The notes under the pieces are model-generated. The model saw nothing but the letters and a program-made list of their open reading frames with translations, ran no database searches and was not told where the DNA came from. A stretch of 64,000 bases of DNA, taken from NCBI GenBank assembly GCA_030141585.1, contig JAQIFP010000002.1, positions 333,902 to 397,901 of the forward strand, given 5' to 3'. Below, in pieces: positions 52,157 to 62,045 of this stretch. Source of the stretch: Ophryocystis elektroscirrha. Lineage: Eukaryota; Apicomplexa; Conoidasida; Neogregarinorida; Ophryocystidae. The position numbers and the translations under genes were made by a program. Every line of letters starts with the position of its first letter. Within the stretch, counting starts at the first letter, position 1.

Positions 52157-53901
52157 TAGTATATTTATGTCCATAAAAACTGATATACATTTGTACATTT
52201 TATCGGTCTAATTGTATGAAAAGTTTTTCAATAGTCTGGTTTAAAGCATATAGGTAGCGGGAAAACTCTAGTATTCGTACTTCCAATGATTTTGCGCGCA
52301 ATGGAGGCAGAGTTAAGGGAACCTTTAATAAAAAAAGAGGGACCGATAGGATTGGTAATATGTCCATCACGTGAATTGGCTTCTCAAACCTGGGAAACAT
52401 TTGAATATTATGCAGATGCTTTGTCTATACATAACTTCCCACAACTCCGCATAAATAAAATTATAGGAGGAGCTAAATTTTCAGATCAGGTAAAATATTT
52501 CACTCATATATATATATACATAAATATATAAATACATATATATACATGAATATATAAATACATATATATACATAAATATATAAATACGTATATATACGTA
52601 TATATACATATAATTATATAAATAAATATAAATATAGATATATTTATATCTATACACATATATAAATAGATATACAAAAAAAAAAGTATATATGTATATA
52701 TATATACATATATACTATACTATATATATATATATATACATGCACACATATGTATATACATAATTACCCATATATATACATATAATTATATAAATACATA
52801 TATATAAATATATATATATGTATACACATACATACATATAAATATATATAGATACAATTATATATATATGTATATATAAATTTATATATACAGATATGTT
52901 ATATTTGAGTATTATTTGATGTTTTGATAAATATAGCATTCTTAATTGGTATATTATGAATGTATATACGTTATTAGATGTTTAAGTTAAAGCAAGGTTC
53001 ACATATTGTTATAGCGACTCCGGGACGGTTGAACGATTTATTAGATCGGCGTGAAATATCTTTAATTCAATGTAATTTCCTAGTGCTAGATGAAGCGGAT
53101 CGTTTAATTGATTGCAACTTTGAAGAAGATATACGACAAATTCTTGATTTTTGTACTCGGAAAAAACAGACTTTATTATTTAGTGCGACAATGCCTCGAA
53201 GGATTCAAGACTTTGCTCAACTAGCAATAATTGATCCGATCGTAGTGACCGTAGGAAATTCAGGATCCGCTAATTTGAATGTGGAGCAACAAGTTGAATA
53301 TGTTAAAGAAGATTGTAAATTATTTCGACTGTTAGACTGTCTCCAAAAAACAAGTCCTCCTACTATGATATTTTGTCGGAATAAAAAAGTTGTAGATGAC
53401 GTTTATGAATATTTATTATTAAAAAATGTTGAAGCCATTGCGATACATGCAGGGATGTCCCAATCAGAGCGTCAAAATGCCATTGATCTATTTAAGAAGA
53501 AACGTAAAGATATTTTAATAGGCACAGATGTGGTTTCTAAGGGGCTTGATTTCCCAGATATACAGCATGTTATAAACTTTGACATGCCTAAAGAAATTGA
53601 AAATTATATACATCGTATAGGGAGAACTGGGAGACAGGGAAAAAAGGGTTTAGCGACTACATTTATCAATCGGCTTCAAGATGAAACAACTTTACTCGAT
53701 TTAAAAGCTCTTCTTATTGAAGCCAACCAGAAAATTCCTCTTTTTATGGAATCACTTCAGATTACTAATCGGATTATTAATGGAGAAAAAGGTTGTGCTT
53801 ACTGTGGAGGACTAGGACATCGTATTACACGTTGTCCTAAGCTGAATATACAAAAAAAAGGACAGAAAAACTCAGATCAATTAACCAATGTTGAGTGGTA
53901 A
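51080..53901 (+). CDS. DDX41: DEAD-box RNA helicase DDX41 (Abstrakt)
   Basis: Three exons: 51080-51716, 52254-52489 and 52978-53901. The ATG at 51080 ([19 protein letters not shown]) is chosen because the ORF upstream is only poly(T)-coded Phe. Motifs in order: the Abstrakt-type N-terminus, Q motif [12 protein letters not shown], Walker A split by intron 1 (ASTG|SGKT), [67 protein letters not shown], and a C-terminal zinc knuckle [14 protein letters not shown] that is the DDX41 hallmark. DDX41 acts with the spliceosomal C complex and in R-loop and rRNA metabolism. The introns (537 and 488 bp) are TA-rich. Its stop codon overlaps the terminator of the convergent SRP RNA gene. Confidence 0.95.
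51830..52200. repeat. TA-rich intron of DDX41
   Basis: TA/TATACATA tracts with a (TA)n run at 52126-52151. The second DDX41 intron has a similar block at 52500-52890 (ATAAATATATAAATACATATA-like units). Confidence 0.65.
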
Positions 53902-53906
53902 AAAAA
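53900..53906 (-). terminator. Pol III T7 terminator of SRP RNA
   Basis: Seven A on the plus strand (T on the transcribed sense) directly after the SRP RNA 3' end. Overlaps the last two bases of the DDX41 stop codon. Confidence 0.75.
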
Positions 53907-54223
53907 TTGAAGACTCGCAACTAGTACATACTATTGTGTTGCGGCTGTAACAGTATCTTAGAAGGACTACAGCAGTTGCTTACTCTGCTCTGTTTCCAGC
54001 CTGAAGCGTTCCGCAACTCTTTCAGTAGCGACCGAGATATTCGCTTACGCTAATCTCCCGAAATGAATGCTCCTTACGAAGCTTTCAAGTCGACGCTGTA
54101 GCAACTTCTTAGGAGCACAAGCCACATATTAGCAACTAATAAACGACTCCTCATACTATACACTAGCTAACGTAACACGATCTTTGGAATAACGTCTAAA
54201 ATCGCACACCTGGCGTATAACCC
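53900..54223 (-). ncRNA. SRP RNA: Signal recognition particle RNA (7SL)
   Basis: An island of near-balanced base composition in AT-rich DNA. Read on the minus strand it contains the helix 8 hallmark GGCTGGAAACAGAGCAG (54001-53985): a GAAA tetraloop followed by the AGCAG asymmetric loop that binds SRP54. Just upstream is helix 6, a hairpin at 54060-54032 with the GNAR tetraloop GUAA closed by GC pairs, which binds SRP19. Helix order (6 then 8) is correct. CTAGTGTATAGTATG-type sequence near 54160-54140 pairs with the 3' segment around 53920-53935 as helix 5. A T7 run at 53906-53900 is a Pol III terminator. The 5' Alu domain begins around 54223 but is divergent. SRP RNA forms the core of the particle that targets nascent secretory proteins to the ER. 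Confidence 0.9.
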
Positions 54224-54294
54224 TTTTTCTAATCTTTTTTTATAAAATAATTTTTTACGTGTTGTAAAGTTATAAATGTATAATAATCAATATT

Positions 54295-54300
54295 CAAAAA
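54295..54300 (-). terminator. Pol III T5 terminator of tRNA-Ser
   Basis: A run of five T (minus strand) about 43 nt after the tRNA 3' end. It is the first T tract of at least four downstream of the tRNA. Confidence 0.5.
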
Positions 54301-54342
54301 GTAATTAATAAACAACAATTTACATTTATTCTTATATTGGGA

Positions 54343-54424
54343 CGACAACGGCAGGATTCGAACCTGCGCAGGCAGAACCTAATGGCTTAGCAGGCCACCC
54401 CCTTAACCACTCGGGCACGTTGTC
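54343..54424 (-). tRNA. trnS(gcu): tRNA-Ser (GCU)
   Basis: On the minus strand the acceptor GACAACG pairs with CGTTGTC, with discriminator G. The D-arm contains CGAGTGGTTAAGG, the anticodon arm is GTGGC-CTGCTAA-GCCAT with anticodon GCU (54391-54389), there is an extended variable arm as in class II serine tRNAs, and the T-arm is GCAGGTTCGAATCCTGC with an intact B box. No intron; CCA is not encoded. 82 nt. Its first base (54424) directly abuts the ATG of the divergent TFIIIC subunit gene. Confidence 0.97.
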
Positions 54425-55996
54425 ATGAGCAAGAACGTCATCCATCCCACGTTAAACTCATTATTCATATCTGAAGAAGATAAGCAGGATTCGAATTTTT
54501 TTGATGTTAAAGAGTCGAATAGTACCAATTTATTTGAACCTGCTCCTTCTAATGGGTATAATTGTTGTTGATACCATTGATCTTTAGGTTTTACCAACAA
54601 TCACCATACATTGATGAAAATGAAAGCGATTTGAGTGAATCGTTTGATTTGTCAGATATAGATGATGTTTTACTAGGAGTTAAATCTGCTTTAACGTCTA
54701 AAAACCAGCCATGGCAGGGAAAAAAAAAAAAGAAAAAAAAAAAAAAGACTCGGCAGTGTAAAACAAACTAAAAAAAACTTGTTTCTTTAGTATTCGTACC
54801 AAAACCTAAAAAAATCAAGTTAAGAACAGCAGCCACAGTATCTGAGATGAGTGCTGAAGCTGAACAACTGCTCCAAGCAGCAAATGAAGCCTATTTAGAA
54901 ACAGAGTTCGTTAAAGCCATTTGTCTCTTAGAAAAAGTTATTCGTATTAATCCAGGTTTACATGATCCCTTTCATCTTTTGGTAATTTTATGAACTAATT
55001 TATGTAATTTATATACACTTGATTGATACATTCATTTATTATTATTAGAAAAAAAAAAATATATATGTATATATATAAATGTTTATAAGTATTTACATAT
55101 ACATCATCTTATAGGCTTATTATGCATATATCTTTATATACTAAAATCAAGTATAAGTGATTAGGTTTAATTATAGAAACTTATATATACATATTTGAAA
55201 ACATATATATATACATATTAACATACATATATATATACGTATGTTAGTATATATATATATATATGTATATGTATTTAAATTCATGTGAAATCAGGGAATA
55301 ATTTATGAAGAGGAATTCAAAGATGCAGCAAAAGCATTGGATTTATATTTAATATGCGCTCATTTAGTACCCCAAGACTTCAATACATGGCAGCGTGTAG
55401 CTTCCATGTCTAGAGAACAAGGAAAATTTAAACAAGCTATATATGCATATAAAAAAGCTGTACGGTTAGCTCAGCAATTGTCTTATCCGGAGGCTGAAAC
55501 ACTGGAGTTTGAATTAGCTAATTGTTATAGCGATGTTGTAGGTATATATACATTACTTATAACTTTATAGGGTGACTATAAAAAAGCAATTATTTGTTAC
55601 AATCAACTAATTGATAAACATCCAAATGCATCGTTTTTATATAAACAACTAGCAGATTGCTACCAAAAAACAGGAGAGGTAGAGAATGTTATAAATGTTC
55701 TGAAGAAGTGCTATTTCACGGAAATTTATGATTATCAAGATTTTGATACGTCTGCATATATTAAAGGACAATCTAGCGTTCAAAATACTTGTAATCTGTA
55801 TAACATCGAAATTACAAATTTGCTTATAAATGCTTATTTTAAAATGAACCGGTTCGATGTGGCACTCGAAATATTATCTGACATTACAAATGCAAACCCC
55901 TTATCAACAATTTATGAACATTTTCTAGTTAAAATGGGAGTAGCGCAGCTATACAATGGAACGGTATGTTTTTACTACTTTGTCTATGCTATAACT

Positions 55997-56027
<31 letters not shown>

Positions 56028-58046
56028 ATTATTATTGTATTATTAAATATATATTTTATATATAAATAATTATGTGTTTTGGTATATATATTAGCAAAGG
56101 TATATAATTGTTTATTAGTATATTAATGAATACCCCTAAATAATTATATACCATATTTTATATACTAATACCATTTTATATAAAAATTTGGCTTCAATTT
56201 ATTATGAAATATGTCTGTAGTAAAAAAAATGCATCCAGTTTAACTTATGCAATATATAATTTAAACTTTAATTAATAGTTGTTTAAATGATCTGAAGCAA
56301 TGTTTATTGGTTATTCGTAACTGACAGGAAAATTCCATCTATATAGAGGAAAGTCTGAAAGTTTTGCTTGAAAAAATGGTGGTCTCTAAAGAGAATTATG
56401 CTGAGCTTTATCTACTTGCAGCAGATGCTTTTGCTTTTGTGTGTCGCATACAAGATGCATTAAATTTGTACAAGGTTGTCGCAACTTTGCCTGATGTCAG
56501 AGAAAATGCCGTGGTAATTATTTGCATCTATTGCTTAATCAATTTCAGGTTTGGGTTAAAATAGCTAGATGCCAATTATTACTTAATAAACAAACAGCTT
56601 ATCCTCCCGCTGAACTTTCTAAGTAAAACTTGTTCTATTTTTTAATCAGTTTTAATTTAATTAAAAACTTTAATAAATATAATTTTTAGTAATTAATAAT
56701 TGTTTGTATATTTGGTTTATAGTCGTAAATACAAAACATAAATTGAATTAAAATAAATCTATTTGATTGATTTGATTTATATATATACTTGTATAAACTT
56801 ATACATATATTCATATATACATATATAAATTTATATATATATACATATATATATATATACATATATATATATACGTATATACATAAATATATATAATAAA
56901 TATAATATAGGGATATATAAACTTTTACATATATATATATGTAATATATATAAATATAATATATGTATAATAAATATAGTATATGTATGCAATATAAATT
57001 TAATATATAGATATATATTTGTATATAATTAGTATTTAATATGTATATATTAATTATAATAAAAATATATAGTAAAAATAATAAAATATATATTTACTTA
57101 TGTTTATATGTACATATGTATATATTTATTTACGTGTGTATATATTTATAGTTACCATATAATTAGCTTAGATTTGTAATTTGTTGTTTTTTTCAACATG
57201 AAAAAAGTATATTCTTTCAGATCATTAATGAATTCCGATAATGTTTCTAGAGCCTCAGTTGTCTGGAATTTGAAGGGAAATGACAAAGCAAGAATATTGT
57301 TATCTCAAGTAATAATTAATTTAATAAAATGAAAAAAAAGGTACTCACGAAAGTTCCCCGTAAATATGCCGATGTTTTGCTTGACAGTATATCATCAAAA
57401 ACTAATGAGTCCAGTTTAACTTTGAAAATTCCAGAGTAAAAAAAAAAAAAAAAAAAAAAAGCTAGGCCTATCCCGAACAATCAACGAATAAAACTTATTC
57501 AAGAATTACAAGAAAATCTTCCAAATATTCTTGAGCTGTGTCAAAGAGAAAAAAAGTCTGTCAAAATAACAGACTGGATAATAAAGTTCTTAGCTTTAAT
57601 AAACGATACAGAACTAGACATAAGACGCCTTATTTCTCGAAAATTTACTGAGAGACTTGTTGAAGCCAAAATTGATTCCAACTCTCAAGCTCAATTACTC
57701 GAAGAATTAGGTATTCAAAAAAGCTACAATACTGATTACGAACTGGATTTTTTGGTAATATTTTATTTCAGTTTACTTAAAATCACAAATTATTTCATTT
57801 TTTACGCTCAAATAATAAGACAATTCTTTTATGCTAAGATAACAAGTAAAGCAAATTTTTTCTAAATTTGTAAAAATTTGTATTTAATTTGGATATGAAC
57901 ACATAAATATAAATACGTTTTATAATTAGTTTTGCTATTATACTATTAAAAATATGTGCAGCAAATATATACATATATAATTATATTTATATATGTATAC
58001 ATGTATAAATGTATATATATATATATATTTACATATTTAGATAGTG

Positions 58047-58077
<31 letters not shown>

Positions 58078-60234
58078 CATAAAAAAAAAATTACATATTT
58101 ACATATAAATATATATATAGATATATATATATGTCACAAAGTTGAAATGTCTGTATATTACATTAAAGCAGTACTTAATTTTATAGTATCGTATCTAATT
58201 TTAATTATTATTTTCATTAGAAAGAGAAAAACTACGATAGTTCTAAGGATTCCCAAATAAGTCTGTTCAAATCTTTCAATGATAATTCTTCCAAATCAAA
58301 TATAAAAAAACCAAAAAGTAATTTACAGCAAGCATCGAATGAACCCGTTAGCTTGGAATCTATTTTATCTTACAAAGAATTCTTTTTTTTTGTTGAAACG
58401 GGTAATTTTTTTTTTTTTTTATACGCCTCAGGAATTGGAGTTGTTATGCGTGCTGCTGGCATGCATAGAGCTGCAGTGGAACTTGCTGAAGCTATTATTT
58501 CAAACAGAAGGTCGATTCGCTCAAAATCTTTAGAATACGTTCGTCATGAGTTTTTGGAAATGCTAAAAAGACTATCACTGCGTAAGAAAAAGAAAAAGTA
58601 ACAATTTTTAGAACTTTCACTGGAAGGAGGATTGTATAGAGTTGCTTTAACATATGTCAGAGAACGATACTTACAGAATAATTCAGTTTCTTCAATTCAA
58701 ACGTATGGAAGATTACTATTTTCTGGAATATTTGCGCATGTAATGATTAAAGGATTATCTCCATCTAGTGAACGTGAAATATTGTTAGAAAATAGGTATC
58801 TGTAGTGTTGATGACGTTAAGTATATATTCAGAGGCTGGACTATACGTCAATTGTTGCTCAAACCTATAGATCCGTATTTAACTTTATTAGCGGGACATT
58901 TTTGCAACTTGTCTGGGCGCTGGTTATTTGCTGTTAGCGAGTACTATAGGGCGTACTATCACTCCAATAAAGACCCATTACCATGCTTATGTTTGGCTAC
59001 AGCTTTGTTAAATTATGCCGTGTCCAGAACTGTTACGGTAAAACATTTTAACACAAATTAATAAATACTTCAATAATATTGCTATCTAATTAACAAAATA
59101 TAAAATACTCAAACATTTTATTATATATACTTTACTATATATATTTACGATAGATATCTTATTATATAAAGATATCTTATTAAATAAAAATATTTTATCA
59201 TATATTTTCTATTATATATATCTTATTATATATAATTTATTATATATATCCTATTACTTATATTTTATTATATAAATCTTATTGTATATACTTTACTATA
59301 TATTTTTCATTACATATATCTCATTATATATATCTTACTATATATATTATATTATGTATATTTTATTATATATATATAATATTATATTCATATATATATT
59401 ATATATTATATTATATATATCATAATATATATATATATCTTGTCATATATATTTAATAAATTTTATTATATATATCTTAATATATATATTTTATTATATA
59501 TATCTTTTAAAACATATCTTATTTGATATATCTTACTATATGTTTTAAATAATGTAAATCTTATTATATATATATAATTATATATATCCTATTATATACA
59601 TCTTATAATATGTATTTCCTGCCTAAGATATTTAATATAGCTTTTATAGAATATTATCAATAAATATGTATTATATGTATCATAAATTTAGAAAGTAGCT
59701 TACAAATTTCACTAACATAATTTTATTAGAGCCGTAACTTTACCATTTTACAGTCATTTTGCATGTTATCGGTTTTTCGAAGACACAGAAAAGAATCATG
59801 TGAAAGTATTATTAAGTAACACGCAGTGTTCTGATATTGATTTTAGGACTTTCTCAGATCCAACGAACTCATTTATTATTGAGTCTTTTGGAAGTTCTGT
59901 GCAATTCGAAAACTGTATCAAATCAATATTTCAAGCAGAGTCTAGTTATAACTTTGCACGGTATTATATAAAAATATTTATAAAAAATTATAGAGCATGT
60001 CATCAATTAAATATGTTAAACCTGGCTGTACCTCTATATAGAGAAACAATTAAATTTTTAGATGAATGTAGATTTTATAAGCTTGGATCATTGGAATATC
60101 CTTTTTCTATGTTTCATTTAGATTTGCCCCAATTAAGGCTTTGTGCAAGTCATAATTTAGCTCTTATATATAAACAAAACAAGCTTTATGACTTGGCTAG
60201 GAATATATACCGAACCAGCTATTACTGGACTTGA
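54425..60234 (+). CDS. GTF3C3-like: TFIIIC TPR subunit (GTF3C3 / Sfc4 / tau131-like)
   Basis: More than a dozen exons from ATG 54425 ([16 protein letters not shown]) to TGA 60232-60234. The N-terminus is acidic ([18 protein letters not shown]), then a run of nine Lys and [10 protein letters not shown], then tetratricopeptide repeats: [79 protein letters not shown]. Later exons include [15 protein letters not shown] and [20 protein letters not shown]. The order and the CAHL..P.D..TWQR motif match the TPR subunit of TFIIIC, which bridges the B-box-bound complex to TFIIIB and so directs Pol III to tRNA genes. The first in-frame stop upstream of the ATG is at 54404-54406, inside the tRNA. Micro-introns of 32 bp (54556-54587) and 30 bp (57436-57465) are clear; long introns are TA-rich. 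Confidence 0.85.
55030..55290. repeat. TA-rich intron 1 block of TFIIIC gene
   Basis: TA/TATACATA repeats with no coding potential. Further intronic TA blocks lie at 55990-56180 and 57950-58140. Confidence 0.6.
56640..57210. repeat. TA-rich intron of TFIIIC gene
   Basis: About 570 bp of TA, TATACATA and TATAATA tracts. No RNA or coding feature. Confidence 0.6.
57436..57465 (+). other. 30-bp poly(A) micro-intron of the TFIIIC gene
   Basis: GT, then 23 consecutive A, then GCTAG. Removal restores the frame ([17 protein letters not shown]) where unspliced reading hits TAA immediately. Confidence 0.85.
59090..59620. repeat. Degenerate TATTATATATATCTTA repeats
   Basis: About 500 bp of imperfect repeats of the type ATTATATATATCTT and ATTATATATATTTT in an intron of the TFIIIC gene. 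Units vary between 14 and 24 bases. Confidence 0.7.
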
Positions 60235-60367: not shown

Positions 60368-62045
60368 TTAAGTATTACTTTGTTTGAGAAGACCTTTATT
60401 TGGATCGGCGTTTATGTATACTGCTTGAGCTTCTATGCCAGCTAAATTTTGACCTCTAAGCATTTTCATGTAGCCTGATTTTCCCCACTGCGATCCCCAA
60501 CTGTTTCGAACTATCCAGTATGGTATTATTTCTGAGGGATTGTCGTGATTAGGTTCCTCTCCCCATCCAACAACTGCAACGGCATGATTCTAAATATGTG
60601 TTATTTCGCAGTATTTATTTACTGTAAATTCCCATCCATTTAATTGGGGGTCTTCACAAGAGCCGGTGTGATTGTTTTGCTTCACAAAAATACCATTTTT
60701 ATATAAAGACAATACTGGAGGTGCCTGAAGATTATTTATTAAATGGTGCATTTTAATTACATCTATTGCAACAACTAGAGGACCATTATTGTAGATTTCG
60801 TGCATCATGGCCTCTTCAGAGCAACATTCATAACAACCGCCCACATAACCATATTCTTCCGCAAAAATAAAGGTTTTCTCTGAGCAGTGATTTTTTTTAT
60901 TTTGGAGTATATGACATAATTGAGCTCTATCTGTTGCTTTATAGTCCATACATTTTTCTGTGGGTATGCCAAATTCTTTTGCCCACTAATAAATTTCATA
61001 TATATTAATGATTTACTCTTCCAACAAGGAATGGATATCCTCCACTGCATCCTTGATTATAAAATGAACAAGACAGAATTGATTGGGCAGATAAACGTGT
61101 ATCCAATAATATATTATTTTTAATATTTTGTTTTTTTAATAACTCTAAAATAATAAATTAATCAGGGTTTTTTTCTACTTTTTAACAAAATATTTGCTCT
61201 TGCTTGAAGTACAAATGTGGAGGAAATAGCGTAACAGGAGCCACATTCACCCTAAAGTTTGTTATTTACTTAAAATCGTACTTGTTCGATTATATCAGTC
61301 CAAGCTTCTTTTGAGAAATTTTTGCTAAAAGGATTTAAAATACTCGAATAGTTTTTCGGGAACGCCGTAATAGATTTAGGAGTAGCTTCAATGCAAGGAT
61401 ACAAATATCCTTCAGGAATAATTCCTATTGTACTTCTGTCATATAACTGGAGTGTTTTCCATCCTGTTTTTCTTTTAGATCCGTATCGTTGTAGCATGGA
61501 TCTTTTATTATTCTTTGGAATAGCTACATATACTTTATGGGGAGCTTTTTGCGACGTATTTATTTTATATGCAATAAAACAGCCATAATGAATTTTATTA
61601 TCTGGCATTTTTACGGAATACCATCCTAATCGTGTTTTTGAATGATTTGTTTTATAGCAATGTGTTACACCATAAGCGTCCTCTGAATCTGTATCTTTTG
61701 GCATCAAATTTTCACAATCTTTATCTGAACTTTTCTCGTAATCTATAAAACCAAAGAAATTATAATCTTTAAATTGAACTTGAAACCCTTCTGTATATAC
61801 CATAGTCCATTTTCCTGTGTTATCCTTTGTCATTATTTCTTCATTACAACTATCATTCAAAGCATTTATTGGTTTTACTATCAAATATGCATTATTTACT
61901 TCGGGAACTCCGTTCCCTTTGAATTCAATACTTCGTTCACCTTCTTTATATCCAATAACTTTATTATCTGTTAGCCAAAGTAATAATTCTTTATTAATTG
62001 GACCCAGAGTACTATTCATCCAGAATTCGTAATTCTACATCAACA

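Follow-up and report, generated by a model that had tools for sequence, protein, structure and literature searches.

Genes at the locus

A 64,000-nucleotide window of Ophryocystis elektroscirrha DNA (the whole stretch that was analyzed) carries a serine tRNA gene and a TFIIIC subunit gene (TFIIIC102/GTF3C3/Tfc4-like; here TFC4) that are divergent and in contact, with zero bases between the tRNA 5′ end (54424, minus strand) and the TFC4 start codon (54425 to 54427, plus strand). This contact, first proposed in a sequence-only reading, was confirmed using Infernal/Rfam and a gene model, and the locus is well away from both of the window's N runs. The gene order was DDX41 > < 7SL < tRNA-Ser TFC4 >, with 523 bp separating DDX41 and TFC4, of which approximately 366 bp (approximately 70%) were 7SL and tRNA when 7SL was taken as 53907 to 54190. 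The earlier reading missed the 7SL gene, as well as the absence of a proximal tRNA terminator and a T-arm 12-mer in TFC4 exon 1. The features of the locus are as follows.

52978 to 53901, plus strand: DDX41-like DEAD-box helicase gene, 3′ part, ending against 7SL
53900 to 53906, minus strand: T7 run, likely 7SL terminator, overlapping the DDX41 stop codon (53899 to 53901)
approximately 53907 to 54190, minus strand: 7SL (SRP) RNA gene, from a Protozoa_SRP match, with outer ends inferred from the fold and the T-run
54191 to 54342, no strand: AT-rich spacer from 7SL to tRNA (22% GC, approximately 150 bp), candidate site of the TFC4 Pol II start and of a 7SL upstream promoter
54296 to 54300, minus strand: T5, the first run of ≥4 T past the tRNA, 43 nt downstream
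54343 to 54424, minus strand: tRNA-Ser(GCU) gene (Infernal/Rfam, 62 bits)
54354 to 54364, minus strand: B box GGTTCGAATCC, 0 mismatches, a TFIIIC site predicted by consensus
54382 to 54390, plus strand: minimal upstream open reading frame (ORF) of two codons, ATG GCT TAG, in the antisense tRNA
54407 to 54417, minus strand: A box TGCCCGAGTGG, 1 mismatch versus TGGCNNAGTGG
54425 to 60234, plus strand: TFIIIC102/GTF3C3/Tfc4-like gene (17 exons, 1,006 amino acids; hand-made model)
54425 to 54555, plus strand: TFC4 exon 1, its first approximately 50 bp being the tRNA 5′ flank and the predicted TFIIIB seat
54484 to 54495, minus strand: 12-mer TTCGAATCCTGC in TFC4 exon 1, matching the serine T-arm at every base

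The tRNA gene (ARAGORN call at 54340 to 54425, tRNA-Ser, anticodon gct) had a cloverleaf, a GCU anticodon, a long variable arm, and intact A and B boxes. ARAGORN calls were made on 43 loci of the 8.0-Mb genome, all fetched for tRNA matches except the 5S locus (L040), and a gct anticodon was called at this tRNA only; the 44 tRNA matches of the genome search are a lower bound. A lone decoder of AGC/AGU would need to work, and the gene is therefore probably no pseudogene. The region 5′ of it is TFC4 coding sequence. The 40-nt upstream flank had a GC content of 0.40, the top value of 44 tRNAs (tied with one; mean, 0.25), and the upstream 60 nt were the fourth-worst fit of 44 to the common pattern, which is atypical, with company. 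On the 3′ side, the first T3 run was 31 nt downstream and the first T4 was at 43 nt; a T3 run occurred in the first 12 nt past the 3′ end in 41 of the 44 tRNAs (two besides this one were without) and a T4 run in the first 16 nt in 38 (five besides this one were without).

The TFC4 model contained 16 introns placed by hand, all GT..AG, with 11 of the 16 being 30 to 37 nt long. A PDB sequence search with the product gave human GTF3C3 as the top natural match (8clk_D; E value, 3.4e−25), in three colinear stretches (query residues 119 to 450, 794 to 876, and 920 to 988) with i-Evalues of 6.9e−19, 0.0066, and 39, the first alone being significant by itself. Yeast tau131 (5aio) was also matched (E value, 3e−9), and a designed TPR protein outscored GTF3C3 because the product is a TPR array. 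It is the N-terminal TPR array that matches GTF3C3/tau131, and TPR families were matched in Pfam. Protein searches returned no TFC4 relative: the whole-protein search (7,996 candidates sharing most words scored) was swamped by TPR proteins, 10 being returned, of which those with a named source were bacterial, and residues 690 to 1006 had no homologous protein among 2,566 candidates. One TFC4 exon searched against prokaryote genomes matched a single Bacteroidales metagenome-assembled genome locus (37% over residues 2 to 76).

Residues 1 to 118 had no database support, and 16 of the first 74 residues were acidic. Exon 1 had a codon score of 8.8 bits (48 codons scored, of which 4 are intronic), which is no better than that of a divergent ORF beside a tRNA-Met gene on contig C4 (6.6 to 8.9 bits); with so modest a score, the case for exon 1 comes from frame continuity with the remaining TFC4 gene. 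Downstream of TFC4, the minus strand at 60400 to 61500 resembled, by eye, a papain-like (cathepsin C-type) protease gene.

On the other side of the tRNA, the Rfam Protozoa_SRP match spanned 53940 to 54182 (minus strand) at 54.6 bits, under the gathering score of 65, and was the single match across the genome. SRP helix 8 with a GGAAAC loop and an asymmetric loop was present, and the stretch CAGGCUGGAAACAGAGCAG aligned well. Folding of the 53901 to 54190 strand predicted a closing helix (z score, −1.44), with 21 of 200 shuffles folding equally well. The adjoining helicase gene was identified as DDX41-like by a match to 8c6j_CD (E value, 7.2e−115).

A dicistronic tRNA-7SL transcript was considered and is disfavored, because a T5 and two T4 runs intervene between the genes; T4 was the first T-run after several tRNAs of this genome. 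In a further reading, the tRNA would provide 7SL with its TFIIIC platform, so that the position of the tRNA by TFC4 is held by 7SL and not by TFC4. The 7SL gene lies on the same strand approximately 150 bp downstream of the tRNA, and 53800 to 54430 outside the tRNA held no A or B box with <3 mismatches. Passages of PMC4950102 describe tRNA or tRNA-like gene boxes that control the 7SL RNA genes of Trypanosoma brucei and L. collosoma; as with those trypanosomatid 7SL/snRNA genes, 7SL here is near a tRNA gene with the sole good A/B boxes nearby. The pair here is, however, tandem and not divergent, the T-runs of 5, 4, and 4 make one common transcript unlikely, and any dependence of 7SL on the boxes is putative. 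We consider this explanation unlikely.

The junction and TFC4 exon 1

The in-frame stop closest 5′ of the TFC4 ATG was TAA at 54404 to 54406, within the tRNA, as had been noted earlier. No AG occurred from this TAA to the ATG, and thus an upstream coding exon cannot join in that stretch. To that extent the ATG is the single simple start, as previously claimed, but a join at the AG of codon 2 (54428 to 54429) is possible. If translation starts at 54425, a TFC4 mRNA with a 5′ untranslated region (UTR) must begin in, or traverse, the tRNA antisense sequence, and it carries the ATG GCT TAG upstream ORF if transcription starts upstream of the tRNA. The proposed overlap of the TFC4 promoter and 5′ UTR with the tRNA thus stands if 54425 is the start; against it, a 5′-UTR intron is mechanically possible, with a candidate running from GT at 54301 to AG at 54389 or 54392. 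The upstream exon of such an intron would still be in the 150-bp spacer beside the tRNA, unless beyond 7SL.

The 12-mer TTCGAATCCTGC had four copies in the genome, in the Ser-GCU, Ser-CGA, and Ser-UGA tRNAs and in TFC4 exon 1, where composition alone gives an expectation of 0.2 copies (both strands); its reversed control pattern had zero copies in the genome search. The T-arm match score of exon 1 was reached by 1 of 3,000 shuffled exons and 1 of 1,954 window tiles or, with looser scoring, by 16 of 3,000 shuffles and 3 of 1,954 tiles. Under a synonymous-codon null that kept the protein, 6 of 3,000 draws contained the exact 12-mer and 110 of 3,000 reached the gapped score. For every other tRNA, the match to the 131 nt upstream of it was no longer than 8 nt, a tandem tRNA-Leu copy excepted. 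The element was rejected as a working B box (ETC type): the invariant G, present in 44 of 44 tRNAs, is replaced by A, its B-box score was 9.3 versus a tRNA minimum of 12.6, and ten sites in the window outscored it, one of them the tRNA’s own B box. We read the 12-mer as a serine tRNA relic or chance, with no working site.

If it is a relic, part of TFC4 exon 1 may derive from a degenerate serine tRNA gene that once belonged to a tandem array, which would account for both the T-arm match and the contact. Aligned to tRNA-Ser(UGA), exon 1 scored 26 (fitting 13 nt), CCATTAG and GCAGG pieces occurred near the 12-nt match in the same order, and a tandem tRNA-Leu pair indicates that such duplications occur in this genome. 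These extra pieces raised the score only from 24 to 26, however, and the frequency with which the synonymous null reached the gapped score also weighs against a decayed copy; we regard this origin as improbable.

Other tRNA neighborhoods and TFIIIC genes

Three recognizable genes had divergent starts <100 nt from a tRNA, at distances of 0 nt (TFC4), 3 or 57 nt (a BCD1-like gene beside tRNA-Gly), and 92 nt (a MutS-like gene beside tRNA-Lys). Short first exons of other genes were possibly missed, TFC4 exon 1 itself being under the 18-bit segment threshold. The BCD1-like gene had a zf-HIT match and lay divergent to tRNA-Gly(UCC) (locus L025, 973 to 1503), where a long T-run and an AG just 5′ of the second ATG suggest a 5′ intron; its ORF had no match in viral contigs. 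The 114 segments scored beside tRNAs included the TFC4 and DDX41 pieces, and some were repeated between loci; from these, 28 other ORFs were scanned against Pfam, and 14 had a family match (PI3Ka was under the cutoff), none of the 14 being Pol III machinery. By rough reckoning, a tRNA touching some gene start should not be rare in a compact genome, and contact with one of the few TFIIIC genes should be rare, but the question was framed only once the case had been seen.

Further observations were made at these loci. Locus L049 (1495 to 1718) held two tRNA-Leu(UAA) genes in tandem that resemble each other closely; past the second of them, the first T4 run was 24 nt downstream. At L046 (1500 to 1583), an Rfam tRNA match of 58.7 bits came without an ARAGORN call; since the scanned loci yielded no tRNA-Tyr, this match may, at a guess, be an intron-bearing tRNA-Tyr. 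Beside a tRNA-Lys gene, L005 (1761 to 2777) encoded a protein that looks secreted and contains HGYLKGP and a TPAPT repeat; by eye it recalls chitin-active lytic polysaccharide monooxygenases, with no match in Pfam or PDB.

The Tau95 family was found in the genome (gene on contig C118). That contig had no listed tRNA, and no B-box match with <2 mismatches was present in the two fetched Tau95 loci, which argues against a general link between TFIIIC genes and Pol III sites in this genome. The B-block TFIIIC family had no match in the genome and matched in 4 of 14 control genomes, all prokaryotes; BRF1 had no match in the genome or in any control and is uninformative. From its proteins, the genome is well supported as alveolate and less so as apicomplexan. 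AP2 domains gave 9 matches, 5 above the cutoff. For one 14-3-3 protein, the named alveolates among the best 120 of 7,992 matches scored included Lankesteria (69 and 72% identity), Platyproteum (71%), and Selendium (70%), with Chromera and Perkinsus equally close (69 to 70%); proteins without a name reached 80%, and long Cladocopium proteins and a plant entry had the best E values.

The tRNA-Gly/BCD1-like and tRNA-Lys/MutS-like pairs fit compaction, and with two other tRNAs near divergent gene starts, the main rival to any regulatory reading is accidental compaction: the genes would have drifted together, Pol II would start at or near the ATG to give a very short leader, and there would be no measurable mutual effect. 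The further divergent starts (3 to 92 nt from tRNAs) speak for it, as does the scan of 28 tRNA neighbors, in which the 14 with a family match included none of the Pol III machinery; 7SL is, moreover, equally jammed against DDX41, for which we know of no Pol III role. Against it, exact contact is the extreme among 44 tRNAs, the partner is a TFIIIC subunit, and TFIIIB/TFIIIC and a Pol II complex initiating at the ATG could hardly escape steric overlap. We hold accidental compaction to be possible, though short of probable.

Interpretation and known systems

The DNA itself shows the zero-base junction, which genes meet there, A and B boxes that are intact, and coding sequence at the expected TFIIIB platform. 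Given these features, we think it fairly probable that Pol II and Pol III genes have been compacted here into one locus, in which the TFC4 start overlaps the tRNA or the spacer and Pol III factors compete with Pol II. We infer all steps from occupancy to TFC4 level, as follows. The TFC4 mRNA would start in the tRNA antisense sequence or farther out, in the 150-bp spacer, and the DNA that Pol II needs would be contested by TFIIIC, TFIIIB, and Pol III on the tRNA. A start in the spacer would give a leader carrying the antisense tRNA and the upstream ORF, and a start within the tRNA would leave the core promoter occupied by TFIIIC on the A and B boxes. TFIIIB sits just upstream of tRNA starts and would here cover the first TFC4 codons. 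With much TFIIIC bound, TFC4 output would fall; with little bound, TFC4 would be freed, like yeast TFC6. Some Pol II/Pol III interference at the locus is likely. That selection has retained it as a regulatory device is unproven, and a by-product of compaction is the likelier account.

The earlier remark that no such case had been described does not hold, since self-repression of the yeast TFIIIC subunit gene TFC6 is published; it is described in PMC4217526 and credited to Kleinschmidt et al. 2011, a work among the references of PMC4228148. A figure legend of PMC4228148 places the ETC6 site at the TFC6 promoter region, and the novelty of the locus is limited by this precedent. Both cases have a TFIIIC site (here by consensus) at the start region of a Pol II-read TFIIIC subunit gene. 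In yeast, as those sources present it, no tRNA gene accompanies the TFIIIC site, which is an additional one, the subunit is the tau-B subunit Tfc6, and repression is reported from experiment, whereas here a complete tRNA gene touches the ATG of the tau-A subunit Tfc4/GTF3C3 and is known from sequence alone. According to PMC10781861, Tau131/Tfc4 takes a direct part in TFIIIB recruitment, so the TFC4 product works at sites of the type found next to its own gene.

Passages of PMC4228148 also bear on neighbor effects in yeast. Of 18 5′ UTRs that are extended when Tfc6 is scarce, 16 adjoin tRNA genes or ETC sites, the extended leaders are translated poorly, and a tRNA gene acts as a roadblock upstream of ATG31. 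The same passages cite a microarray study with minimal neighbor effects and eleven chromosome III tRNA genes with no significant neighbor effect, one possible exception aside. The ATG31 case is similar in that a tRNA gene lies upstream of a Pol II gene, shaping its 5′ end and output in yeast; ATG31 is a gene without a known Pol III role, whereas the product here is a part of TFIIIC and the gap is zero. No tRNA gene touching a protein-gene start codon was found among the listed titles and abstract openings on this arrangement, TFIIIC, its autoregulation, and protozoan Pol III genes, a scope with most subscription journals outside it.

The feedback by position that the sequence-only reading put forward is plausible in the light of TFC6, but the DNA by itself demonstrates no effect. 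If a negative feedback loop has been selected, the operator limiting the TFIIIC scaffold subunit would be the tRNA, possibly aided by a second, weak TFIIIC site within exon 1. The identity of the subunit, the contact, and the yeast precedent fit such a loop, as does the exon 1 12-mer, found otherwise in Ser tRNAs only over 8 Mb and with a score reached by one shuffle in 3,000. The low B-box score of that element, its missing invariant G, the ten better sites in the window, the rates at which the protein-keeping null yields the gapped score and the exact 12-mer, and a Tau95 gene without such a site all count against the loop, which we judge quite unlikely. Still more doubtful is the fullest version, in which tRNA-Ser(GCU), the one decoder called for its codons, would be both promoter and operator of TFC4, TFIIIC/TFIIIB would cover the start codon and the codons after it, Pol III capacity would be sensed there, and 7SL would use the same platform.

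To our knowledge, control of the TFIIIC level has been little studied outside yeast. If the overlap at this compacted locus regulates TFC4, the result would be a minimal feedback circuit in which one DNA stretch is tRNA gene, tRNA promoter, and TFIIIC gene start. Were the operator reading true, TFIIIC self-control would have evolved a second, independent time, in an apicomplexan-like cell and on a subunit other than that of yeast. If compaction alone is responsible, the locus would still show that full overlap of a Pol III gene with a Pol II start is tolerated.
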